From Halomonas sp. ML-15 (GTDB lineage Bacteria > Pseudomonadota > Gammaproteobacteria > Pseudomonadales > Halomonadaceae): a DNA stretch of 64,000 nt. The DNA lies in assembly GCF_014779595.1 (NCBI RefSeq), contig NZ_JACXZT010000003.1, positions 124,001-188,000 on the forward strand, in the 5' to 3' direction. The notes beneath the pieces are model-generated. The model did no database searches. It was not told the DNA's origin and worked only from the letters and a program-made list of their open reading frames with translations. The position numbers were made by a program, and so were the translations under genes. Below, in pieces: positions 1-9,529 of this stretch (its first letter is position 1; each line of letters begins with the position of its first letter).

Positions 1-1
1 T

Positions 2-613
2 CCTTCCGGAGAGCGGTTGATCGAGCAGGCCGAGGAGCGCGGGGGCTTGAAGTTCTTCGGCACCCAGCATCGCGGGCCTCGCCACATGACCGCCAACAAG
101 GCGATTCACTCTCCGGAGGACCTCGATGGGTTCCGTCTGCGCCTGCCGTCACTGCCGGTCTGGCTCGAGGTATGGGAAGAGATCGGTGCCCAGGTCGTCA
201 ACGTGCCGGCACCGGAGATCTACCTGTCGATGCAGACCCGTCAGGTCGATGGCCACGAGAATTCGCTCTCCTCGCCCTATACTCGCCAGCTGTGGGAGGT
301 CCAGGACTACATCATCCTTACCAGCCACGTGCAGTTTCCATGGAACTGGGTGGCCAGTAACCAGTGGTGGGAGGGCCTCGAGGCAGACGATCAAGCGCTG
401 ATTACCGAGGCGATCCATGTGGCCCGCGAGTACGGCACCGAGCGCGAGCGCGAACTCGATGAGTACTACCTCGAGCAGCTCGAGGAGCGCGGCATGACCA
501 TTATCGAGCCCGATATCGATGCCTTCCGCGACGCCGCCATGCCGGCCATCGAGCGACTGCTCGAGGAGATGGCCGACGGGGTGATGGACGACGCCCTCGG
601 TGATGATGCCTGA
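2..613 (+). CDS. TRAP transporter substrate-binding protein (DctP family), 5' truncated
   Basis: This is the C-terminal part of a periplasmic DctP-type solute receptor; the frame is already open at the left edge, so signal peptide and N-terminal lobe are missing. About 203 codons are visible. The segment with DGHENSLSS followed by a Tyr fits the ligand-pocket region of TRAP receptors (usually DGxExS or DGxENS), and the acidic helical C-terminus is typical. The two membrane subunits follow at once, which confirms the family. The receptor would capture a carboxylate-bearing solute and deliver it to the DctQM permease. The ligand is unknown; the downstream deacetylases and imine-handling enzymes suggest an amino acid or N-acylated amine derivative, which is inference. 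Confidence 0.9.
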   Translation, partial: PSGERLIEQAEERGGLKFFGTQHRGPRHMTANKAIHSPEDLDGFRLRLPSLPVWLEVWEEIGAQVVNVPAPEIYLSMQTRQVDGHENSLSSPYTRQLWEVQDYIILTSHVQFPWNWVASNQWWEGLEADDQALITEAIHVAREYGTERERELDEYYLEQLEERGMTIIEPDIDAFRDAAMPAIERLLEEMADGVMDDALGDDA

Positions 614-699
614 CGCGTTCTTGCCATGACCGGCAGCAGCGGCGACCCCTCGGGGCGCCGCTGCTGCATTGTGAACAACCTCAATTGGAGGAGTCTGCC

Positions 700-1242
700 G
701 TGTCCCGTTCTCCAACGCCGCCCGCCGCCACCCTGGATCGAGTGGCCTTTTATCTTCTGCGGGGACTGACCGTGGGCTGCGATATCCTCGGGGTGCTGCT
801 GCTGGCTGGGGTGTTGCTGCTGCTGGCTGGCGCCGTGGTGGCTCGCGACCTGCTCGGTCTGGGCATGCCCTGGTCCGAGGAAGTGGCCTCGATGCTGGCC
901 ATCTATGCGATCGGGTTCGGCTCGCTCTCCGCCTGGGTGCGTGGCGAGCATCTGGTGGTGGACCTGTTCAGTCACCGCCTCTCCGGCGTGGCGCGAGGCG
1001 TTCAGTATCGGCTCGTTGCGCTGCTCTCCTGCGGTTTTTTCGTGCTCGCTGCCTGGGGCGCCTGGGTCATGGTCGGTGCCAGTGCCAATAACCGCACCGT
1101 GTCACTGGGCATCAGCTTCAGCTATCTCTATCTGGGCATCCTGATCGGCTTTGCCGGCATGGCGGTGCTCTCCGCCTGGCAGGCGCTGCGTGGCCCGGTC
1201 GAGTGGCGACCCGTAGCGGACATGAACGAGGAGAGTGCCTGA
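700..1242 (+). CDS. TRAP transporter small permease (DctQ family)
   Basis: A 180-residue protein with about four hydrophobic helices, matching the DctQ small membrane subunit of TRAP transporters. I chose GTG at 700 because a strong GGAGGAG ribosome site (687-693) sits six bases before it; a TTG at 685 in the same frame would put this site inside the gene. The helices start near residues 20, 55, 95 and 130, with the family-typical run of small and aromatic residues. The stop overlaps the start of the large permease (TGATG), so the two are translationally coupled. It should form the inner-membrane complex with the large subunit and use the sodium gradient; the substrate is not evident. Confidence 0.9.
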   Translation: MSRSPTPPAATLDRVAFYLLRGLTVGCDILGVLLLAGVLLLLAGAVVARDLLGLGMPWSEEVASMLAIYAIGFGSLSAWVRGEHLVVDLFSHRLSGVARGVQYRLVALLSCGFFVLAAWGAWVMVGASANNRTVSLGISFSYLYLGILIGFAGMAVLSAWQALRGPVEWRPVADMNEESA

Positions 1243-2537
1243 TGCTCGAGCTGCTGATTTTCGTCGGTGCCCTGTTGCTGCTGATGGCCATCGGGCTGCC
1301 GGTGGTGGTGGCGATCGGCATCACGTCTTTCGTTGCGCTGGGGGTGACCAGTGCCACCGGGCTGTCGGTAGAGCTGATGTCGCTGCGCATGGTGCAGACA
1401 CTCAACAACTACACCCTGCTGGCGATACCGCTGTTCATCCTGGCCGCCAACATCATGAATTCGGGCTCGACGACCACCCGAATCTTCGACTTTGCCACTG
1501 CCCTGGTTGGCTTTACCAAGGGCGGGCTGGGGCACGCCAACGTGGTGGCCAGCTCGCTGTTCGCCACCATGTCCGGCACGGCGGTAGCGGATGCCGCCGG
1601 GCTTGGCAGCGTCGAGATCAAGGCGATGAAGGAGCGCGGCTACGACCTGGGCTATTCGGCGGGAATTACCGCCACGTCCAGCGTGATCGGGCCGATCCTG
1701 CCTCCCTCCATCGCCCTGGTGGTGTATGGCTGGTTGGCCAATGTCAGCATCGGCGCGCTGTTCATGGCCGGTCTGGTGCCGGGCGTCCTGATGGCGCTGA
1801 TGCTGATGGGGCTGACCGTGCTGTTGGCGGTCACCAATCGGGTGACGATGCCGGCGCCTATCCCGTTCTCGGGGAGCGAGGTCGTGCGCACCGGCCGGCG
1901 GGCGATCCTGCCGCTGATGATGCCGTTGATCATCGTGGGAGGCATCTGGAGCGGTTTCTTTTCACCTACTGAAGCCGGCGCGGTAGCCTCGCTGTATGCG
2001 GTTATCCTCGGCGGCCTGATCTACCGCGATCTCGGCCTGCTCGATCTCTATCGTGCCTTCCGGCGCACGCTGATGTTCAGCGCGGCGATCCTGCTGATCA
2101 TCGCGGTATCGAGCTTCTATGGCTGGCTGCTGGTGCGCATCGGCATTCCTCAGGCGCTGGCCGGCCAGGTGGCGGGGCTGGAGGTCTCGACCCTGGTGCT
2201 GCTGCTGGGCTTCGCGCTGTTCTTCCTGCTGATCGGCTGCTTCATGTCGGTGATCGAGAGCATCCTGATCTTTACGCCCATCGTGGTGCCGGCGGCGCTG
2301 GCGGCGGGGCTGGATCCGCTGCACTTCGGTATCGTGATGGTCATCACGCTGTCGGTGGGGGTGGTCACGCCGCCCTTCGGCACGGTGCTGTTCCTGATGG
2401 TGGGGATTACCCGGTTACGCTATGGTCAGGTGGTGATGTCGGTGCTGCCGTTTCTGGTGCCGATATTCTCCACTATTCTGATCTTGATCGCCTTTCCCAG
2501 CTTGGTGACCTGGTTACCGGCGCGACTGGGCTACTGA
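1242..2537 (+). CDS. TRAP transporter large permease (DctM family)
   Basis: A 431-residue, highly hydrophobic protein with about 12 transmembrane segments. It has DctM hallmarks: an N-terminal MLELLIFVGALLLL helix, the TMSGTAVADAAGLG segment, the ILPPS segment and FSPTEAGAV. It is the transport-active subunit that moves solute with sodium. The start is the ATG overlapping the DctQ stop. A longer in-frame reading from 1203 exists but would lie within dctQ. The next gene begins six bases after the stop, so transporter and catabolic genes are probably one transcript. Confidence 0.93.
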   Translation: MLELLIFVGALLLLMAIGLPVVVAIGITSFVALGVTSATGLSVELMSLRMVQTLNNYTLLAIPLFILAANIMNSGSTTTRIFDFATALVGFTKGGLGHANVVASSLFATMSGTAVADAAGLGSVEIKAMKERGYDLGYSAGITATSSVIGPILPPSIALVVYGWLANVSIGALFMAGLVPGVLMALMLMGLTVLLAVTNRVTMPAPIPFSGSEVVRTGRRAILPLMMPLIIVGGIWSGFFSPTEAGAVASLYAVILGGLIYRDLGLLDLYRAFRRTLMFSAAILLIIAVSSFYGWLLVRIGIPQALAGQVAGLEVSTLVLLLGFALFFLLIGCFMSVIESILIFTPIVVPAALAAGLDPLHFGIVMVITLSVGVVTPPFGTVLFLMVGITRLRYGQVVMSVLPFLVPIFSTILILIAFPSLVTWLPARLGY

Positions 2538-2543
2538 CGAGTA

Positions 2544-3584
2544 ATGTCTATGCAACTCTTTTATCACCCCGATCAGAAGCGCCATGCGCCGCCGAGCTTT
2601 CTACTCCGCGGCCGCCAGGTGCCCTCGCCGGAAGGCCCGCTGAGGGCCGAGCTGCTGTCTGCCGGGCTGGAAACCTGCGGCCTCTCGCTGACCGCGCCTG
2701 CCGCCAGCGACAGTGGGCGCCTGCGCGAGCGACTGTCGCGGGTGCATACGCCGCGCTACCTCGAATTTCTCGAGACGATTCATGCCCGCTGGAGAGCGCT
2801 GCCGGATGCTGCCGAGATCGTTGCGCCGAATGTGCACCCCTGCGGTGGCGGCTATCACTACCCGCGGCATCCGGTAGGCCAGGTGGGCTGGCATATGCAC
2901 GATATGGCTTGCCCGATGACCGAGGAGAGTTTCGCCGGGATCCTGGCCAGCGCCGCCAGCGCCGAAGCCGCCGCCGAGGCGGTGCTGGCTGGCAAACGCC
3001 ATGCCTATGCGTTGTGCCGGCCCCCTGGCCATCATGCTGGTGCCGAGCGGGCCGGTGGCTTCTGCTTCCTCAACAATTCGGCGCTGGCCGCCTCAGTGCT
3101 GCGCGAGCAACATGAGCGGGTGGCGATTCTCGACGTTGACCTGCATCATGGCAACGGCACCCAGGATATCTTCTACGCCAGGGGCGATGTGTGGACCGGC
3201 TCGCTGCACGCCGATCCGGCGGATTTCTACCCCTTCTTTTGGGGCGGCGCCGACGAGACCGGTGAGGGCGAGGGGGCTGGCGCCAATCTCAATATCCCCT
3301 TGCCGCTGGGCAGTGACGGGGCGGCTTTCATGGCCGCCCTGGAGCGCCTTATCGGTGCCATGCAGGCGTTTCGGCCCAGTGCGCTGGTGGTGGCGCTGGG
3401 GCTCGACGCCCATAAGGACGATCCGCTGGCCGGCCTGGCGCTGGAGAGCGAAGACTTCACGACCCTGGGGCAGCGTCTGTCGGCCATCGAACTGCCGACC
3501 GTCATCGTCCAGGAGGGCGGCTATCCCACCGAGTGGCTGGCCGCCAACCTTGCCGCCTTCATGCGCGGCTATCGTCAAACTTGA
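2544..3584 (+). CDS. Histone deacetylase-fold amidohydrolase (acetylpolyamine amidohydrolase-like)
   Basis: A 346-residue enzyme of the arginase/deacetylase fold, expected to hydrolyse an N-acyl amide with catalytic zinc in the cytoplasm. The catalytic His pair is at 163-164 (PPGHHA). Zinc ligands are probably Asp199 and His201 (DVDLHHGNG) and Asp288 (LGLDAHKDDP), and the transition-state Tyr is 327 (EGGY). All are present, so it should be active. The HP-rich stretch near 98-120 and the overall length resemble bacterial acetylpolyamine amidohydrolases rather than AcuC. It lies six bases after the TRAP permease and is followed by RidA. Substrates could be N-acetylpolyamines or N-acetylated amino acids; specificity cannot be read from sequence. 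Confidence 0.85.
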   Translation: MSMQLFYHPDQKRHAPPSFLLRGRQVPSPEGPLRAELLSAGLETCGLSLTAPAASDSGRLRERLSRVHTPRYLEFLETIHARWRALPDAAEIVAPNVHPCGGGYHYPRHPVGQVGWHMHDMACPMTEESFAGILASAASAEAAAEAVLAGKRHAYALCRPPGHHAGAERAGGFCFLNNSALAASVLREQHERVAILDVDLHHGNGTQDIFYARGDVWTGSLHADPADFYPFFWGGADETGEGEGAGANLNIPLPLGSDGAAFMAALERLIGAMQAFRPSALVVALGLDAHKDDPLAGLALESEDFTTLGQRLSAIELPTVIVQEGGYPTEWLAANLAAFMRGYRQT

Positions 3585-3640
3585 CCGCTTACGTCAACCG
3601 GTTGGCCACCGCTGGCCAGCCTCTCACGAGAGAGCAGCAC

Positions 3641-3997
3641 ATGACTATCCAGTACCACGACAGCAACACCCGCATGAGTCAGGCCACCATTCACAACGGT
3701 ACCGTCTACCTGGCCGGCCAGGTGCCGGACGATGCCAGCGCCGATATGCGCGGGCAGACCGAGCAGGTGCTGGCCAAGATCGAGCGCCTGCTGGCCGGCG
3801 CCGGCTCCTCCAAGGAGCAGCTGCTCAGCGCCCAGATCTGGGTCACCAGCATGGCCGAGTTCGATCAGATGAATGCTGCCTGGGACGCCTGGGTCGTGCC
3901 CGGTCGGCCGCCGGTGCGTGCCGCCGTCGAAGCCAAGCTGGCCAAGCCCGAGTGGAAGGTCGAGATCATGGTCACTGCGGCAATTCCGGGGGCCTGA
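3641..3997 (+). CDS. RidA family enamine/imine deaminase
   Basis: A 118-residue RidA/YjgF/UK114 protein. The start ATG at 3641 gives the usual family length; upstream in-frame codons run back into the preceding gene. Family features include the YLAGQVP segment, a central Q-x-x-x-V-L-x-K-I helix, and the conserved arginine in RPPVRAAVE that binds the substrate carboxylate. RidA proteins hydrolyse reactive enamine or imine intermediates released by PLP or flavin enzymes to keto acids. Here the encoded D-amino acid dehydrogenase and OCD-family reductase make and use imines, so a pathway-specific role is likely. The next gene begins one base after the stop. Confidence 0.9.
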   Translation: MTIQYHDSNTRMSQATIHNGTVYLAGQVPDDASADMRGQTEQVLAKIERLLAGAGSSKEQLLSAQIWVTSMAEFDQMNAAWDAWVVPGRPPVRAAVEAKLAKPEWKVEIMVTAAIPGA

Positions 3998-3998
3998 C

Positions 3999-4940
3999 AT
4001 GCGTGTCGTCTCGGCCCAGGAGGTGGCGGCGTCGCTGCCGTGGCAGGCGCTGGTGGATCGGCTGGCGCGGACCTTTCGTGACGGCGTGGAATCGCCGCCG
4101 CGTCATCACCACGCCATGCAGCGGCCTGACGGTGAGGCCACCCTGCTGCTGATGCCGGCCTGGGAAGCGGCCGGCTATATCGGGGTCAAGATGGTCAACG
4201 TCTTTCCCCAGAACGCCGATCATGGCCTGCCCGCCATCGCCGGGGTCTATCTGCTCAGCGAGGGCGCCCACGGGCGCCCCCTGGCGTGCCTCGACGGCAG
4301 CGAGTTGACCCGTCGGCGCACCGCGGCGGCTTCGGCGCTGGCCGCCCGGGAGTTGGCCCGCGACGATGCGGAGACGCTACTGGTGGTCGGCACCGGCAAG
4401 CTGGCGCCGATGGTGATCGAGGCGCATGCGGCGGTGCGACCGATCAAGCGAGTGCGCATCTGGGGGCGTAGCCTGGAGAAGGCCGAGCGGCTGGCGGCGG
4501 AGTACGCCGAGCGTTTCGAAACCACCGCGGTGGAGGACCTCGAGGCGGCCACCCGGGAGGCGGATATCGTCAGCTGTGTGACGCTGTCCAGCGAGGCGCT
4601 GATCCGTGGCGCCTGGCTCTCGCCGGGCACCCATCTCGACCTGATCGGCGCCTTTCGACCCAGCATGCGCGAGACCGACGCCGAGTGCTTCTCACGCAGC
4701 GAGGTGTTCGTCGACACCTATGCCGGGGCCCAGGGCGAGGCGGGCGACATCCTGCAGGCCATCGACGAGGGGGCCTTTCGGTTCGAGGCCATCCGTGCCG
4801 AGCTTGCCGAGCTGCTGCGCGGTGAGAAGCCCGGACGCAGCAGCGATCAGGCCATCACCCTGTTCAAGTCGGTGGGGGCGTCGCTCGAGGATCTGGCGGC
4901 GGCCATCGAAGTATGGGAGCAGATCGAGGGGCGGGCATGA
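3999..4940 (+). CDS. Ornithine cyclodeaminase / mu-crystallin family protein (probable ketimine reductase)
   Basis: A 313-residue OCD/mu-crystallin family protein. The N-terminal half has the family GVKMVNVFPQN segment (the Lys is usually catalytic) and ELTRRRTAAASALAA. A Rossmann nucleotide-binding site follows near residue 128 (LLVVGTGKLA), and GAFRPSMRE-D lies around 215-225. Family members are ornithine cyclodeaminases, alanine dehydrogenases or NAD(P)H-dependent reductases of cyclic ketimines such as pyrroline-2-carboxylate. With RidA and a DadA-like dehydrogenase beside it, a ketimine reductase or EutC-like role seems more likely than true ornithine cyclodeaminase. The stop overlaps the next start (ATGA). 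Confidence 0.85.
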   Translation: MRVVSAQEVAASLPWQALVDRLARTFRDGVESPPRHHHAMQRPDGEATLLLMPAWEAAGYIGVKMVNVFPQNADHGLPAIAGVYLLSEGAHGRPLACLDGSELTRRRTAAASALAARELARDDAETLLVVGTGKLAPMVIEAHAAVRPIKRVRIWGRSLEKAERLAAEYAERFETTAVEDLEAATREADIVSCVTLSSEALIRGAWLSPGTHLDLIGAFRPSMRETDAECFSRSEVFVDTYAGAQGEAGDILQAIDEGAFRFEAIRAELAELLRGEKPGRSSDQAITLFKSVGASLEDLAAAIEVWEQIEGRA

Positions 4941-6040
4941 CACAGCCCACCGGGTTCTTCTGGCACGAGCGCTGTTTCTGGCACGACCCGGGCGCGGTCG
5001 GGGTGTTTTCTGCGCCGGGTGAGTTTCTGCAGCCGCAGCCTGCCTCGGAAAGTCCCGAGAGCAAGCGGCGGTTGAAGAATCTGCTGGAGGTGTCGGGACT
5101 GATCGATGAGCTGGTGGTGGTCAAACCGCCCCCGGCGAGCCGCCGGGACCTGGAGTACTTTCACACCGCGCACTATCTCGACGCCCTCGAGAGTGGTGAC
5201 ACGGCACGCGGCGGCGACGCCGGTGAGGCCGCGCCCTATATGCCCGGCAGCCTGTCCGCGGCCCGCCACTCGGTGGGTTTGGCCATCGCCGCGGTGGATG
5301 CAGTGGTCAGCGGTGAGCTGACCAATGCCTATGCGCTATGCCGTCCTCCGGGGCACCACGCTGAGCCGGACCGGGGGCGGGGCTTCTGTCTGCTCGGCAA
5401 TATTCCGGTGGCGATAATGCGCGCCCGGGCGCAGGGGCGGCTGGGCCGAGTGGCGATCCTCGATTGGGATGTACACCATGGCAACGGCCAGCAGGTCGCC
5501 TTCTACGACGACCCCGAGGTGCTGACCATTTCGCTGCACCAGGCCGCCAACTATCCCCTCGAGAGCGGTAGCGTCGACGAACGCGGCGCAGGGGCAGGTC
5601 TGGGGACCAATCTCAACCTGCCGCTGCCGCCAGGTTGCGGTATCGGCGCCTACGACTATGCCATGCGCGAACTGGTGGTGCCGGCCCTCGAGGCCTTTGA
5701 CCCCGAGCTGATCGTGGTGGCCTGCGGCTATGACGCCTGCGCCAAGGACCCGCTTGGCAAGATGCTGCTAAACAGCGCGGCCTTTGCTGCGATGACGCAA
5801 CAGGTCATGGCGGTAGCAGCGCGGGTCTGCGAGGGGCGTCTGGTGATGGCGCACGAAGGTGGCTACTCGGAAGGCTATGTGCCGCTGTGCGGCCATGCCG
5901 TGATCCAGACCCTGGCCGGCAGCAGGATCGGCGTGCCCGACCCCCAGAGCGACGAGATCGCGGCTTGGGGCTACCAGGCGCTGCAGCCGCATCAGCAGGC
6001 GCTGATCGACGATTGGCGGCGTCGGGTCATGACGCAGTAG
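4937..6040 (+). CDS. Second histone deacetylase-fold amidohydrolase, class II-like
   Basis: A 367-residue deacetylase-fold enzyme, clearly different in sequence from the one at 2544-3584. Its N-terminus (FFWHERCFWHD) and SVGLAIAAVDAV segment resemble bacterial class II HDAC-like amidohydrolases. Catalytic residues are intact: His140-His141 (PPGHHAE), Asp178 and His180 (ILDWDVHHGNG), Asp266 (GYDACAKDP) and Tyr310 (HEGGY). It starts at the ATG overlapping the OCD-family stop, so the two are translationally coupled. Two dissimilar zinc deacetylases in one catabolic operon suggest two acyl substrates or two successive deacylations; this is inference. Confidence 0.85.
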   Translation: MTQPTGFFWHERCFWHDPGAVGVFSAPGEFLQPQPASESPESKRRLKNLLEVSGLIDELVVVKPPPASRRDLEYFHTAHYLDALESGDTARGGDAGEAAPYMPGSLSAARHSVGLAIAAVDAVVSGELTNAYALCRPPGHHAEPDRGRGFCLLGNIPVAIMRARAQGRLGRVAILDWDVHHGNGQQVAFYDDPEVLTISLHQAANYPLESGSVDERGAGAGLGTNLNLPLPPGCGIGAYDYAMRELVVPALEAFDPELIVVACGYDACAKDPLGKMLLNSAAFAAMTQQVMAVAARVCEGRLVMAHEGGYSEGYVPLCGHAVIQTLAGSRIGVPDPQSDEIAAWGYQALQPHQQALIDDWRRRVMTQ

Positions 6041-6103
6041 GCTGGGCCAGGACAAGGCGCGTGATAACGCTCGATAACAATCGCCAGGGTGGGGAGAGCT
6101 GAC

Positions 6104-7378
6104 GTGGATATTGCGGTGATCGGAGCCGGCGTGGTGGGGGTGACCACGGCGCATGCCTTGCAGCAGCGCGGTCACCGCGTGACGGTGGTGGAGCGACACT
6201 CCGCCGCTGGGCTCGAGACCAGCTGCGCCAACGCCGGCCAGCGCAGCTACGGCTATGTCTACCCCTGGGCATCGCCGGCGATGCTCAAGAAGGCCGTGCC
6301 GTGGCTGGTCAAGCGCGATGGCCCGCTCAAGCTGCAGCTGCCCCCCTCCCGAGACACCCTGCGCTTTCTGGCGGCGACCTGGCGCTTTGCCCAGACACCC
6401 GGCCTGTTCGAGGCCAACAAGCGTGCCATGCTGCGCCTCGGCGCCTACAGCCGGCAATGTTTCGAGGCGCTGGAGAATGATGTGACGCTGACCTTCGATG
6501 GTGGCCACGGCGGCCTGATCGAGCTGGCCAGTGATGTCGAGTCGCTCAAGGCGCTGCAGGTCAACGCCGGGCTGCTCGGCGATATGAACATCGAGCATCG
6601 ATTGCTGACAGCGGCCGAGGTCGCCGAGCATGAGCCGGCCCTGGCTGGCAGCCAGCCGCTGGTGGGGGGCATCTGGCTGCCCGGCGATGGCACCGGCGAC
6701 TGCTACCGCTTCACCCAGGCGCTGGCGGCTGCCTGTAAGGCCCGCGGGGTAGATTTCCTGTTCGATACCCTGGTGACCGGCGCCGAGCGCGACCAGGGGG
6801 GGCACCTGCGGGCGCTGACGCTGGCCGCCGCCGACGGTGAAGCACGTGAGCCGTTGGCCGCGGACGCCTTCGTGCTGTGTGCCGGCACCGCCTCGCAGCG
6901 GCTGGGGGAGCTGTTCGGCGCCCGACTGCCGATCTATCCGGTCAAGGGCTATTCGCTGACCATGCCGCTGCGCGATGCGGCTCGGGCGCCCCGGTCGACG
7001 GTGATCGATGACCGCTACAAGGTGGTAGTCACGCGCCTCGGCGAGCGCTTGCGAGTCACGGGTTTCGTCGAGCTGGCTGAGCACAATCGCCAGATCCCTG
7101 CGGCACGGCTGGCGACGCTGCGTGAGGCACTGGCGTCGCGCTTCGCGGGAGCCGCCGATCTCGATGCCGCCGAGCCGTGGACCGGATTTCGTCCCATGAC
7201 CCCGGACGGGCCACCGGTGATTGGCGAAGGTAAGCGCAACAACCTGTTTCTCAACACCGGCCATGGCACTTTCGGCTGGACGCTTTCAGCAGCCAGTGCC
7301 CAGTTGATCGCCCAGTTGATCGACGGCGACAAACCGGTGCTGGCGATGGAGGCGTTCCGCCCCGGTCGCTTTGGCTGA
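6104..7378 (+). CDS. FAD-dependent D-amino acid dehydrogenase (DadA-like)
   Basis: A 424-residue flavoprotein of the DAO/DadA family. The FAD-binding dinucleotide motif starts at once (DIAVIGAGVVGVTTA). A second family signature near the C-terminus includes GFRPMTPDGPPVIG and NTGHGTFGWTLSAASAQL. I chose GTG at 6104 because GGGGAG lies about eight bases before it; an upstream GTG at 6089 lacks such a site. DadA oxidises D-amino acids to imino acids at the membrane and feeds electrons to the respiratory chain. The imino acid product is a natural RidA substrate, which links it to the gene at 3641. It might instead oxidise another secondary or D-configured amine. Confidence 0.85.
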   Translation: MDIAVIGAGVVGVTTAHALQQRGHRVTVVERHSAAGLETSCANAGQRSYGYVYPWASPAMLKKAVPWLVKRDGPLKLQLPPSRDTLRFLAATWRFAQTPGLFEANKRAMLRLGAYSRQCFEALENDVTLTFDGGHGGLIELASDVESLKALQVNAGLLGDMNIEHRLLTAAEVAEHEPALAGSQPLVGGIWLPGDGTGDCYRFTQALAAACKARGVDFLFDTLVTGAERDQGGHLRALTLAAADGEAREPLAADAFVLCAGTASQRLGELFGARLPIYPVKGYSLTMPLRDAARAPRSTVIDDRYKVVVTRLGERLRVTGFVELAEHNRQIPAARLATLREALASRFAGAADLDAAEPWTGFRPMTPDGPPVIGEGKRNNLFLNTGHGTFGWTLSAASAQLIAQLIDGDKPVLAMEAFRPGRFG

Positions 7379-7408
7379 TGGCCTTCTGATTTGACAAGGA
7401 TGTGTCCC

Positions 7409-8371
7409 ATGACGCCTCTCTACGATCGTGATGGATGGATATGGCAGGACGGCGAGTGGCTGGCCTGGCGCGACGCTACCACCCATCTGCTGACGCACAC
7501 TCTGCACTACGGCATGGGCTGCTTCGAGGGCGTGCGCGCCTACGCAGGCAGGGGCGGCACCCAGCTGTTCCGGGCCGCCGAGCACACCCGGCGGCTGGTG
7601 GATAGCGCCCACGCGCTGGATATGCCGCTGGCCTGGGATCCCGCGGCACTGATCGAGGCGCAGCGCGAGTGCGTAGCGCGCAACGAACTGACCAATGCCT
7701 ACCTGAAGCCGACGGTGTTCTTTGGCGCCGAGGGCATGGGGCTGCGTGCCAAGGGCTTGACCACCCATGTCATGATCGCCGCCTGGGACCTGGGCGACTA
7801 TCTCGATCCGCGTGCCGCGCGCGTCGGTCTGCGGGCGCTGACCTCCTCCTGGGCGCGTCATCACGTCAATATCAGCCTGTGTCGCGCCAAGACCAACGGC
7901 CACTACGTCAACTCGATCCTGGCGCTGAATACCGCGGTCAAGGCGGGGTTTGATGAAACCATCATGCTTGACCCGGAGGGCTACGTCGCCGAAGCCTCGG
8001 CGGCCAATGTCTTCCTGCTGCGCGACGGGGTGCTGCATACACCGGAGGTCACCTCCTGCCTGCAGGGCATCACCCGCGATAGCGTGATCCAGCTGGCGCG
8101 CCGCGAGCTGGGGCTTGAGGTGCACGAGCGGCGAATTACCCGCGACGAGCTGTATACCGCCGACGAAGCCTTTCTCACCGGCACCGCCGCCGAGATCCTG
8201 CCGCTGCGCGAGTTGGATGGTAGGCGTATCGGAGCACGCGGCGCCGATGCTGGTCTGGCGCTCGAGGAGATCGCTCCGGAGAGTGTCACGGCGCGACTAC
8301 AGGCGCTCTACCGACGGCTCACTCGAGGTGAGTTGATGGGCTACGACGGCTGGCTGACAGCCGTTCAATAG
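7409..8371 (+). CDS. ilvE: Branched-chain amino acid aminotransferase (class IV PLP enzyme)
   Basis: A 320-residue fold-type IV PLP aminotransferase, close to the usual IlvE length. The N-terminal THTLHYGMGCFEGVRAY is the typical BCAT opening; the PLP lysine is probably Lys161 in CRAKTNGHY; EASAANVF and GITRDSVI bind cofactor phosphate. The start at 7409 has AGGA about seven bases upstream. It transfers amino groups between branched-chain amino acids and 2-oxoglutarate. It lies 30 bases after dadA and may be the last gene of the catabolic operon, or the housekeeping ilvE with its own promoter. D-amino acid transaminase activity is a less likely alternative, because the branched-chain signature is good. 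Confidence 0.85.
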   Translation: MTPLYDRDGWIWQDGEWLAWRDATTHLLTHTLHYGMGCFEGVRAYAGRGGTQLFRAAEHTRRLVDSAHALDMPLAWDPAALIEAQRECVARNELTNAYLKPTVFFGAEGMGLRAKGLTTHVMIAAWDLGDYLDPRAARVGLRALTSSWARHHVNISLCRAKTNGHYVNSILALNTAVKAGFDETIMLDPEGYVAEASAANVFLLRDGVLHTPEVTSCLQGITRDSVIQLARRELGLEVHERRITRDELYTADEAFLTGTAAEILPLRELDGRRIGARGADAGLALEEIAPESVTARLQALYRRLTRGELMGYDGWLTAVQ

Positions 8372-8393
8372 GCCAGCCGCCGCACAAAAGAAA

Positions 8394-8422
8394 ACGCCAT
8401 GAAGCCCGACGCTTCATGGCGT
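8394..8422. terminator. Bidirectional terminator between ilvE and trmJ
   Basis: A perfect 12-bp stem (8394-8405 with 8411-8422) and a five-base loop. On the minus strand the stem is followed by a T-rich run (from AAAAGAAAA at 8386-8394), making a good intrinsic terminator for trmJ. On the plus strand the following run is less U-rich but could still end the TRAP/ilvE operon. Confidence 0.75.
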
Positions 8423-8438
8423 ATTCCTTCCTCCCTGG

Positions 8439-8491
8439 GCACCTTCCGGGTGCTATGGCCGAAGCCATGTCCTGTTGGCGCTCCCTGCGCC
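8439..8491. repeat. Three consecutive short hairpins in the ilvE-trmJ gap
   Basis: Three five-base-stem hairpins follow each other: 8439-8443/8449-8453 (loop TTCCG), 8455-8459/8464-8468 (loop CGAA) and 8477-8481/8487-8491 (loop TCCCT). They lie just beyond the shared terminator, with no supported coding frame. They could be an intergenic repeat element or the fold of an untranslated RNA; no function can be assigned. Confidence 0.4.
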
Positions 8492-8565
8492 GTCGCATCC
8501 TTGACGAGGTAGAAGCAGTGTCCGTTGCGCCTGCCCAATCCGTTATAGACTGGTGAGATGACAGT

Positions 8566-9336
8566 CTAGTCACGATTGCGTGACCTTTCCTTGTCATTAA
8601 TCACGTTCTCGGGAAAATGCTGCTCTACTGCGCTGAGCAGGCCACGCAGCAGCGAGAGCTCGCGGCGCGAGGGCTGGGCACGGGCAAACAGCGCCTGCAG
8701 CAGCTGCTCGGTGTTGGCATGGGGTTGGGTCAGAAAGCCGCTGGTGGCCATGACCCGCGACAGGTGCGTTTGAAAATAGCCGAGCTGCTCGCGGGTCGGC
8801 GGTTCGGCGTGGGCGGGACGCTGGTAGCGGTAGTCGCTGGTTGGCTGGCGGCGCCAGGCGCGGTGGACTTCGTAGGCGAGCACCTGGACCGCCTGGGAGA
8901 GATTGAGGATGCCATAGTCGGGATTGGCCGGGATGCTGACCTGATGGCTGCAGAGCCGAATCTCGTCGTTGGTCAGCCCCGAGCGCTCGCGGCCGAAGAC
9001 AAGTGCTACCGGGGCTTGCTGGGCATTGGCAATGACCGCCTCGGCCATGGCGTCGGGTTCATCGTAGTGGGGCAGCGGCAGGCTGCGCAGCCGTGCGCTG
9101 GCGCCGACGACCTGCACGCAGTCGCCAAGCGCGTCGCTCAGCTCGTCGACCACTCGTGCCCCGTCGAGGACATCCTCGGCACCGGCGGCCAGCCTCGATG
9201 CTTCGGCGTCGGGGTAGCAGCGCGGTCGCACCAGCACCAGGTCGCTCAGCCCCATGGTCTTCATGGCGCGGGCTGCCTGGCCGATATTGCCGGGATGGAA
9301 GGTCTGGACGAGGATGATGCGGATATTGGAGAGCAT
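8566..9336 (-). CDS. trmJ: tRNA (cytidine/uridine-2'-O-)-methyltransferase TrmJ
   Basis: A 256-residue SPOUT-class methyltransferase. The N-terminus (ILVQTFHPGNIGQAARAMKTMG) carries the SpoU motif 1 with N-x-G-A-x-R-A-like residues. The trefoil-knot motifs ALVFGRERSGLTNDE and NPDYGILNLSQAV lie at about 110-150. The C-terminal 90 residues are the helical dimer extension of TrmJ. It methylates the 2'-O of nucleotide 32 in the anticodon loop of several tRNAs using SAM. It stands alone here, with a clear terminator on its 3' side and the groEL terminator behind it. Confidence 0.92.
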   Translation of the reverse strand: MLSNIRIILVQTFHPGNIGQAARAMKTMGLSDLVLVRPRCYPDAEASRLAAGAEDVLDGARVVDELSDALGDCVQVVGASARLRSLPLPHYDEPDAMAEAVIANAQQAPVALVFGRERSGLTNDEIRLCSHQVSIPANPDYGILNLSQAVQVLAYEVHRAWRRQPTSDYRYQRPAHAEPPTREQLGYFQTHLSRVMATSGFLTQPHANTEQLLQALFARAQPSRRELSLLRGLLSAVEQHFPENVINDKERSRNRD

Positions 9337-9380
9337 GGCGGAGATTCAGTTGCGGGCAGAGGATATGGCGGTATCTTACA

Positions 9381-9456
9381 GCGCCGAGCGCCGAGCGCCG
9401 AGCGCCGAGCTGCTGGGCGCTTGCAGCTTGGCGCTTGCAGCTCGGCGCTCGGCGCT
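9381..9456. repeat. GC-rich tandem and inverted repeat between trmJ and groEL
   Basis: A seven-base unit GCGCCGA is repeated four times in tandem (9381-9408). A 17-base arm (9394-9410) is perfectly inverted at 9440-9456. The core between them contains GCTTGCAGCT-like units, and 9412-9428 is the exact reverse complement of 24575-24591 downstream of grxD. Both copies flank a terminator, which suggests a dispersed terminator-associated repeat family in this genome. Confidence 0.75.
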
Positions 9457-9493
9457 AAAAACAAAAAACCCCGCCGGTGTATCACCGGCGGGG
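9457..9493 (-). terminator. Intrinsic terminator of groEL
   Basis: Read on the minus strand, an 11-bp perfect GC-rich stem (9483-9493 with 9469-9479), three-base loop, followed by a long T-run (complement of the A-tract 9457-9468). It begins about 37 bases after the groEL stop and is a textbook Rho-independent terminator. Confidence 0.92.
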
Positions 9494-9529
9494 TCTGTCT
9501 CAGGCTTATGCCTGGGGCAGTGGGCTGAT

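Follow-up and report, generated by a model that had tools for sequence, protein, structure and literature searches.

Why a bacterium should carry two zinc deacetylases of the histone deacetylase (HDAC) family in one block with a transporter and enzymes of imine and ketimine chemistry is the question raised by the left end of a 64,000-nucleotide stretch (the window) of the 4.8 Mb genome of Halomonas sp. ML-15 (contig NZ_JACXZT010000003.1, positions 124,001 to 188,000; G000:C12:124001-188000 in the coordinates used here). Nine genes on its + strand, encoding a TRAP transporter, the deacetylases H1 and H2, a RidA-family protein, a putative reductase of the ornithine cyclodeaminase (OCD) family, a D-amino acid dehydrogenase (DadA) and a branched-chain-type aminotransferase (BCAT), form a real and conserved block that is very likely an operon. 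The encoded families and the gene neighbourhoods of related genomes suggest that the block probably serves the catabolism of an ω-N-acylated diamino acid, with a reduced ketimine as the end product. In the lysine-specific form of this model, to which we give an even chance, the catabolic operon would take Nε-acetyl-lysine through 6-acetamido-2-oxohexanoate and, by deacetylation and ring closure, to L-pipecolate.

The gene order is DctP-DctQ-DctM-H1-RidA-OCD-H2-DadA-BCAT, with the following features (window positions; model scores in bits against the model cut-off; ORF, longest mechanical open reading frame):

2..613, + strand: dctP, TRAP substrate-binding protein, 3' part (Pfam DctP, 3.9e-41)
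700..1242, + strand: dctQ, TRAP small permease (Pfam DctQ, 3.9e-20; ORF from 685)
1242..2537, + strand: dctM, TRAP large permease (TIGR00786, 385 > 268; ORF from 1203)
2544..3584, + strand: H1, zinc deacetylase of the acetylpolyamine-amidohydrolase type, cluster 4 (Pfam, structure matches, motifs; PMC11532494)
3641..3997, + strand: RidA-family protein, presumed imine/enamine hydrolase (Pfam Ribonuc_L-PSP, 5e-26; ORF from 3533)
3999..4940, + strand: predicted OCD-family Δ1-piperideine/pyrroline-2-carboxylate reductase (NF004793, 430 > 322; ORF from 3873)
4937..6040, + strand: H2, zinc deacetylase of the HDAH type, cluster 1b (Pfam, structure matches, motifs; PMC11532494)
6104..7378, + strand: dadA-type D-amino acid dehydrogenase (NF001933, 438 > 383; ORF from 6089)
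7400..8371, + strand: BCAT, branched-chain-type class IV aminotransferase (NF005146, 371 > 279; ORF from 7391)
8394..8422, no strand assigned: 12-bp palindromic stem-loop between BCAT and the convergent gene at 8566-9336 (T tract on the - strand)

Intergenic distances are 86 (P-Q), -1 (Q-M), 6 (M-H1), 56 (H1-RidA), 1 (RidA-OCD), -4 (OCD-H2), 63 (H2-DadA) and 21 bp (DadA-BCAT). An earlier note on this DNA, made from its letters alone, had described genes in one direction with overlaps or small gaps and had named their families; both descriptions hold, with nine genes on the + strand at -4 to +86 bp and with TRAP P, Q and M, two zinc deacylases, RidA, a reductase of the OCD/mu-crystallin family, DadA and a class IV aminotransferase all found by Pfam and NCBIfam. 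Its left boundary and several of its gene starts needed correction: dctP begins at C12:123636, 365 bp before the window starts, with about the last 63% of the gene inside the window (complete gene C12:123636-124613, L009:11636-12613, 325 aa), and the starts used here for RidA (3641), OCD (3999), H2 (4937), DadA (6104) and BCAT (7400) are our choice over the longer mechanical ORFs. The gene 3' of BCAT is convergent and the palindrome between them is terminator-like for the - strand. An RNA element inside the operon was rejected, all four Rfam matches in the window being tRNAs at 19-23 kb, and promoter-like matches in 1-9500 were set aside, with two found and 1.1 expected by chance.

The comparison of gene order across the family that the earlier note had proposed found the operon conserved. 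Genomes were sampled from the family (151, from a larger family) and from the order (390), with identity cut-offs placed at gaps in the match lists (H1 at least 65%, BCAT at least 73%, OCD at least 71%) and weaker paralogs removed before counting; the counts rest on tblastn because the codon-score caller used for the relatives overlooked genes at some loci, L111 among them. H1 orthologs occur in 61 of the 151 family genomes and BCAT in 57, and in all 54 genomes that hold both, BCAT follows H1 on the same strand at a distance of 1.1-3.9 kb, leaving seven with H1 and no BCAT. An OCD ortholog was present somewhere in the genome in 60 of the 61 genomes with H1 versus nine of the 90 without it (here and below, co-occurrence counts, compared by Fisher test, take no account of shared ancestry). 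Chance clustering was rejected because of this association and the complete linkage of BCAT to H1.

Partner genes were scored at 63 H1 loci from inside and outside the family (H1 at least 60% identical, at least 5 kb downstream of H1, locus at least 9 kb, identical H1 copies removed), counting only genes on the same strand within 8 kb, by which rule L091, for example, scored RidA only though OCD and H2 stand further along. RidA was found at 56 loci, OCD at 52, H2 and BCAT at 45 each and DadA at 15. The commonest partner set, at 31 loci, was exactly RidA-OCD-H2-BCAT, followed by the same set with DadA (eight loci). DadA is optional and not core because it occurs in 15 of the 63 loci; its candidacy as an essential part was rejected, and the general D-amino acid substrate considered earlier falls with it. 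Within the genus, H1 is 88% identical in G012 and in L087 (Franzmannia pantelleriensis; Franzmannia was formerly Halomonas), and G035 lacks both BCAT and H2.

The nature of the ketimine rests on the OCD protein and its neighbours in relatives. OCD scores above the cut-off of a bifunctional model for Δ1-pyrroline/piperideine-2-carboxylate reductase (NF004793), and its nearest solved relatives are 7rbp, possibly plant SARD4, and the Δ1-pyrroline-2-carboxylate (P2C) reductase 6t3e. Assignments as ornithine cyclodeaminase (NF005762, 128 < 350; NF006379, 225 < 417) and as EutC (TIGR02992, 146 < 472) were rejected, and the BhcD cut-off was not reached either.

The window's own genome encodes the pipecolate genes AmaA (C12:276490-277767, 674 > 600) and AmaB (822 > 730), one NhaC-type gene apart, in an amaA-nhaC-amaB group about 150 kb from the operon. 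Three genomes of a single genus (G025, G064 and G084) carry OCD orthologs outside any H1 operon, each following AmaA on its strand at a distance of about 170-245 bp and with AmaB nearby; at locus L190 AmaA (696 > 600) and AmaB (807 > 730) exceed their cut-offs, as does AmaA of G064 and G084. In a different genus, G103 holds adjacent DadA (67%) and OCD (76%) genes together with AmaA-NhaC-AmaB in one 11 kb stretch (L193:6986-17763; DadA and OCD assigned by family, AmaA by model and AmaB by 83% identity to the AmaB of the window's genome), likely a full set of genes for taking D-lysine to 2-aminoadipate, its reductase being of the OCD family. Loci without deacetylases, put forward earlier as a case that would speak against a joint pathway, do exist, yet the one in L193 looks like the later steps of the same route.

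In a tree of 65 OCD proteins the AmaA-linked copies fall among the operon copies: L193 groups with L181 and L184 at 99/98, L190-192 stand beside the long branch of L211, where their placement is less sure, and a paralog of G008 (53%) lies far outside. Among H1-negative genomes AmaA was found in seven of nine with OCD versus 11 of 81 without it, and over all family genomes in 31 of 61 with H1 versus 18 of 90 without. These OCD, AmaA, AmaB and DadA neighbourhoods point to a lysine-derived ketimine that would be reduced to L-pipecolate. The known D-lysine route of Pseudomonas putida runs from a D-amino acid dehydrogenase through Δ1-piperideine-2-carboxylate and its reduction to L-pipecolate into downstream pipecolate genes, as presented in parts of PMC6034422, and the route from Nε-acetyl-lysine to L-pipecolate is proposed because of the OCD-AmaA linkage taken together with this D-lysine logic.

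The two enzymes that could remove the α-amino group differ in their distribution. DadA, above the cut-off of the general model NF001933, occurs at this level of similarity in 15 of the 151 family genomes, 12 of which have H1 in the same locus; in G103 its neighbour is OCD, in the stretch that also holds AmaA-AmaB, and the 20 kb examined in G062 and in G097 showed no other operon partner. BCAT exceeds the cut-offs of two models of type I branched-chain aminotransferase (NF005146, as listed, and TIGR01122, 341 > 246). A second ilvE, of type II (ilvE_II, 489 > 307), lies at C17:178160 in the same genome; BCAT is thus an extra enzyme because the genome also carries ilvE_II, and its role as the sole IlvE was rejected.

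Both deacetylases keep their catalytic residues. H1 is nearest the solved acetylpolyamine amidohydrolases 3men (5.6e-84), 9gkz and 3q9b, and its catalytic set is intact (RPPGHH 159-164, D197-x-D199-x-H201, D288, QEGGY 323-327). H2 is nearest the HDAH-type enzymes, namely 9glb (3.9e-111) and the propanil and dimethoate hydrolases, with RPPGHH and EGGY intact. Passages of PMC11532494 describe cluster 4 as acetylpolyamine amidohydrolases and cluster 1b as HDAH-type, and give Glu106 of Mycoplana ramosa ApaH as binding the polyamine and Glu101 of KpHdaH as an entry residue that contacts the peptide substrate. At the ApaH-106 position H1 has V111 in place of a polar polyamine-recognition residue (Glu or His), and among 81 distinct H1-type sequences, picked by loop pattern and so not a random sample, 79 have an aliphatic residue there (V 54, I 22, A 2, L 1), the others being D 1 and T 1. 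H2 has Ala98 at the Glu101 position, with GEAAP at 96-100 where 9glb has GKEAP.

Several relatives of the deacetylases were seen along the way. A paralog of H2 (62%) lies at L010:9862-10965 (C17:239862-240965) in the window's genome; around it are carriers, a class III aminotransferase and what looks by eye like an agmatine deiminase gene. Second H1 copies in L067 and L068 (65-66% identical, upstream of an AraC gene) have the zinc-ligand Asp D288 replaced by Asn and are possibly inactive or altered paralogs. Single in-frame stops occur in H1 of G121 (L038; G121:C6:246290-247321) and in BCAT of G091 (G091:C22:30215-31195), reflecting either decay or sequencing error. Plasmid relatives of H1 (168 records) are all below 60% identity, and at four opened plasmid loci, from the best 20 of the 168 and with an incomplete gene table, no OCD was annotated and the partners were different. 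On a plasmid of Rhizobium sp. CB3171 (L083) an H1-like deacetylase (53%) adjoins a GNAT acetyltransferase, with an aspartate aminotransferase family gene two genes upstream of the latter, and the GNAT pairing recurs in several further rhizobial plasmid matches.

The transporter offers a further view of the substrate. The TRAP P, Q and M subunits are present in order and the receptor has a conserved Arg: Arg169 of DctP aligns with an Arg of the solved TRAP receptor 4p47, which we take to be the carboxylate-binding residue, and the receptor of a second TRAP system (TRAPb) aligns likewise. Carboxylated or amino-acid compounds are the usual ligands of TRAP and polar-amino-acid receptors. At the same position the transporter differs by lineage between two TRAP systems, a PotABCD-like ATP-binding cassette (ABC) system and a polar-amino-acid ABC system. 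All five genomes of the window's genus have one TRAP system, and TRAPb, whose large permease shares about 35-38% identity with that of the genus, occurs at 40 of the 63 loci, often behind an AraC-type regulator, and is the version carried by Halomonas elongata (L114). Modicisalibacter muralis has the PotABCD-like system, with a receptor that matches PotD weakly, and the polar-amino-acid system occurs at L111, from Marinobacter sp. F4216, and at L206-L210, from five further genomes of the order; the two of these six receptors that were scanned (L111 and L207) are nearest a lysine/arginine/ornithine model, below its cut-off. At eleven of the 63 loci none of the four receptor types was within range. 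The common theme of the swapped transporters would be an amino-acid-like or amine-bearing ligand.

In the lysine-specific model, the TRAP transporter, assigned by family, would import Nε-acetyl-lysine. The BCAT-type transaminase would strip the α-amino group from the L form, whose acetylated side chain is neutral and would be of the type that such enzymes prefer, and in lineages with DadA that enzyme would act on the D form, both giving 6-acetamido-2-oxohexanoate. H1 and H2, with family and catalytic residues in place, are predicted to hydrolyse the Nε-acetyl group either before or after the α-amino group is lost. The freed amine would close onto the ketone to give Δ1-piperideine-2-carboxylate, a chemistry known from the D-lysine route, and RidA may hydrolyse imine or enamine forms. 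The OCD-family protein, given its model match and the adjacency of its orthologs to AmaA, would reduce the ring to L-pipecolate, which AmaA and AmaB, encoded elsewhere in the genome, could carry to 2-aminoadipate; carriers without AmaA might, at a guess, keep pipecolate, for instance as an osmolyte. The model of uptake, amide hydrolysis and imine conversion offered earlier fits as a route to a reduced cyclic amino acid, and its open choice of substrate is narrowed.

A number of observations weigh against this reading. NF004793 covers both pyrroline and piperideine and cannot split ornithine from lysine, AmaA above its cut-off is missing in 30 of the 61 H1 genomes, and the co-occurrence counts are not adjusted for shared ancestry. 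The partner set is loose at its edges, with DadA in just 15 and H2 and BCAT each in 45 of the 63 loci, none of the five partners at three H1 loci (L064, which is G011, L093 and L104) and RidA and/or OCD alone at five more family loci (L054, L055, L058, L067 and L068). BCAT occurs without H1 in three of 57 genomes (G098, G126 and G141), where H2-BCAT is kept (L173-L175). Four of the six loci with an amino-acid ABC receptor (L206, L208, L209 and L210) have H1-RidA without OCD, and the PotABCD-like transporter of Modicisalibacter muralis would suit a polyamine too.

Some of these points would be met by a five-carbon version of the route, in which Nδ-acetylornithine would pass through 5-acetamido-2-oxopentanoate, deacetylation and Δ1-pyrroline-2-carboxylate to L-proline, to be kept as an osmolyte or burnt by PutA. 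We regard this version as unlikely; it stays live because the OCD model is bifunctional and blind to ring size and because many carriers lack AmaA, which suits a product, proline, that needs no further gene in the block. One of the nearest solved relatives of OCD is the P2C reductase, and the lysine/arginine/ornithine model is the one that comes closest to the two Marinobacter-type receptors scanned. Set against proline are the linkage of OCD orthologs to L-pipecolate oxidase and piperidine-6-carboxylate dehydrogenase and the higher frequency of AmaA in genomes with OCD and with H1.

Catabolism of acetylated polyamines, in which putrescine or cadaverine would be set free by H1 and H2 and the remaining genes would deal with the products or with unrelated amines, appears improbable. 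The polyamine derivative entertained earlier loses ground on the aliphatic residue at the ApaH Glu106 position and on the receptor types, which are usually for carboxylated ligands; OCD, DadA and BCAT are not known to us to have a polyamine step, and beyond the relation of H1 no polyamine-family match was found among the nine proteins by Pfam and NCBIfam. The genome also has its separate H2 paralog beside the presumed agmatine deiminase. What speaks for polyamines is the similarity of H1 to acetylpolyamine amidohydrolases and the PotABCD-like transporter in the place of TRAP in one genus, along with the growth on acetylputrescine and acetylcadaverine that PA1409 and PA0321 of that type give Pseudomonas aeruginosa; the same enzymes also act on lysine-based test substrates, according to parts of PMC4784309. 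The Glu106 position alone does not exclude a polyamine, in that PsApaH has His there and still acts on acetylpolyamines (PMC11532494).

General scavenging of D-amino acids and branched-chain amino acids, with BCAT as IlvE, a general DadA and deacetylases acting on unrelated N-acyl amino acids, is very improbable: BCAT and DadA do exceed the IlvE and general DadA models, but another ilvE exists, BCAT is tied to H1 wherever both occur, G035 of the same genus does without BCAT and H2, and OCD and RidA would be left unexplained. That the block degrades acetyl-diaminobutyrate, an ectoine derivative, with OCD acting in the manner of EutC, is scarcely credible, as beyond the halophilic hosts and a weak match far under the EutC cut-off there was no ectoine hydrolase or DoeB-type match among the nine proteins by Pfam and NCBIfam, and deaminated acetyl-diaminobutyrate would form an unlikely four-membered ring.

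Outside the family H1 and RidA appear in a second setting. Six non-family loci (L111 and L206-L210) combine H1-RidA with the amino-acid ABC system, and five of the six (L111 and L207-L210) also have, no more than about 8 kb away from H1, a class III aminotransferase and 3-oxoacid CoA-transferase A and B; the sixth, L206, ends at a contig edge. A thiolase is present in L206, L207, L209 and L210 and an M20 deacylase in L209 and L210, while OCD and DadA are kept only in L111 and L207. Also outside the family, L211 reads AraC-TRAPb-H1-Rid-OCD-DadA, and in L212-L214 (H1 about 50% identical) a class III aminotransferase adjoins H1. The aminotransferase and deacylase of this second branch give partial matches, below cut-off, to PRK06917 and PRK06915, both of which match in Bacillus subtilis and in five and three others, respectively, of the 14 control genomes. 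Neither kamA nor an acetyltransferase was noticed beside the Marinobacter-type loci, in genomes where no search was aimed at them.

A Pseudomonas reportedly degrades L-β-lysine via its N6-acetyl form, 6-acetamido-3-oxohexanoate and 4-acetamidobutyryl-CoA, a pathway that is known biochemically and for which, to our knowledge, genes have not been assigned. In B. subtilis, kamA (BSU19690, lysine 2,3-aminomutase) and yodT (BSU19740, class III aminotransferase) have close locus tags and are both listed as SigE-dependent in material from PMC6522883, and Nε-acetyl-β-lysine is an established solute of methanogens in the account of PMC1224877. The second-branch gene set is perhaps a candidate Nε-acetyl-β-lysine catabolic cluster. 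We tentatively suggest, as a possibility below even odds, that H1-RidA is a core for Nε-acetylated lysines plugged into two routes: for α-lysine, as in the window, BCAT or DadA, OCD, L-pipecolate and AmaA/AmaB; for β-lysine, in the Marinobacter-type loci, an aminotransferase, CoA-transferase, thiolase and M20 deacylase that would burn Nε-acetyl-β-lysine to a product at the level of 4-aminobutyrate. If true, this would supply genes for the L-β-lysine pathway and make these HDAC-family enzymes catabolic acetyl-lysine hydrolases, not protein or polyamine deacetylases.

As a separate observation, an ArgE/DapE-type M20 deacylase gene stands about 4 kb upstream of dctP in the window's genus (L009:6167-7429; C12:118167-119429). 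Its neighbours, identified by eye, are a GntR regulator and a dipeptide-type ABC system, and its product is 61% identical to the M20 protein of the L210 cluster.

The open literature, which leaves subscription journals mostly outside, held bacterial deacylase surveys and lysine-pipecolate work, to the extent that it was accessible, and within it no report was recognised of this operon or of a bacterial conversion of Nε-acetyl-lysine to pipecolate, in line with the earlier impression that no described pathway has exactly this set. The parts are of known kinds and the combination, as far as searched, is new. Discussion of HDAC-family enzymes in bacteria has mostly centred on the deacetylation of proteins or polyamines, and two such enzymes joined to ketimine chemistry in a conserved operon would imply a nutritional role, recovering acetylated lysine left from protein turnover or acetylated osmolytes of salt habitats. 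This opens a direct test of what the enzymes of a large 'histone deacetylase family' group act on, and the model also predicts that an enzyme of the OCD family feeds the pipecolate pathway and offers candidate acetyl-β-lysine genes.

Among known systems, the yodT...kamA locus of B. subtilis (SigE), which we take to be linked to Nε-acetyl-β-lysine and whose yodP-S gene identities we likewise assume, resembles the Marinobacter-type loci in their class III aminotransferase, CoA-transferase A/B and, in two, M20 deacylase; those loci add a thiolase, an amino-acid ABC system and H1-RidA, and the gene set is not in the window operon. The D-lysine/L-pipecolate pathway of P. putida, whose genes are presumably DpkA, AmaA and AmaB, shares with the proposed route the step from Δ1-piperideine-2-carboxylate to L-pipecolate and the possible formation of the ketimine by a D-amino acid dehydrogenase. 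It differs in that its reductase is malate/lactate dehydrogenase-like whereas the one here belongs to the OCD family, and in that two HDAC-type deacetylases, RidA, BCAT and a transporter stand in front here, with AmaA/AmaB at a distance. H1 is like the cluster 4 amidohydrolases (M. ramosa ApaH, PA1409 and PA0321) in fold family, zinc ligands, RPPGHH/EGGY and an aligned L2 loop, and unlike them in its aliphatic residue at Glu106 and in its partners, which are amino-acid and ketimine enzymes. H2 is like the cluster 1b enzymes (KpHdaH, PA3774 and the dimethoate and propanil hydrolases) in sequence, RPPGHH and EGGY, and unlike them it has Ala98 for Glu101 of KpHdaH and sits in a conserved, putatively catabolic operon.

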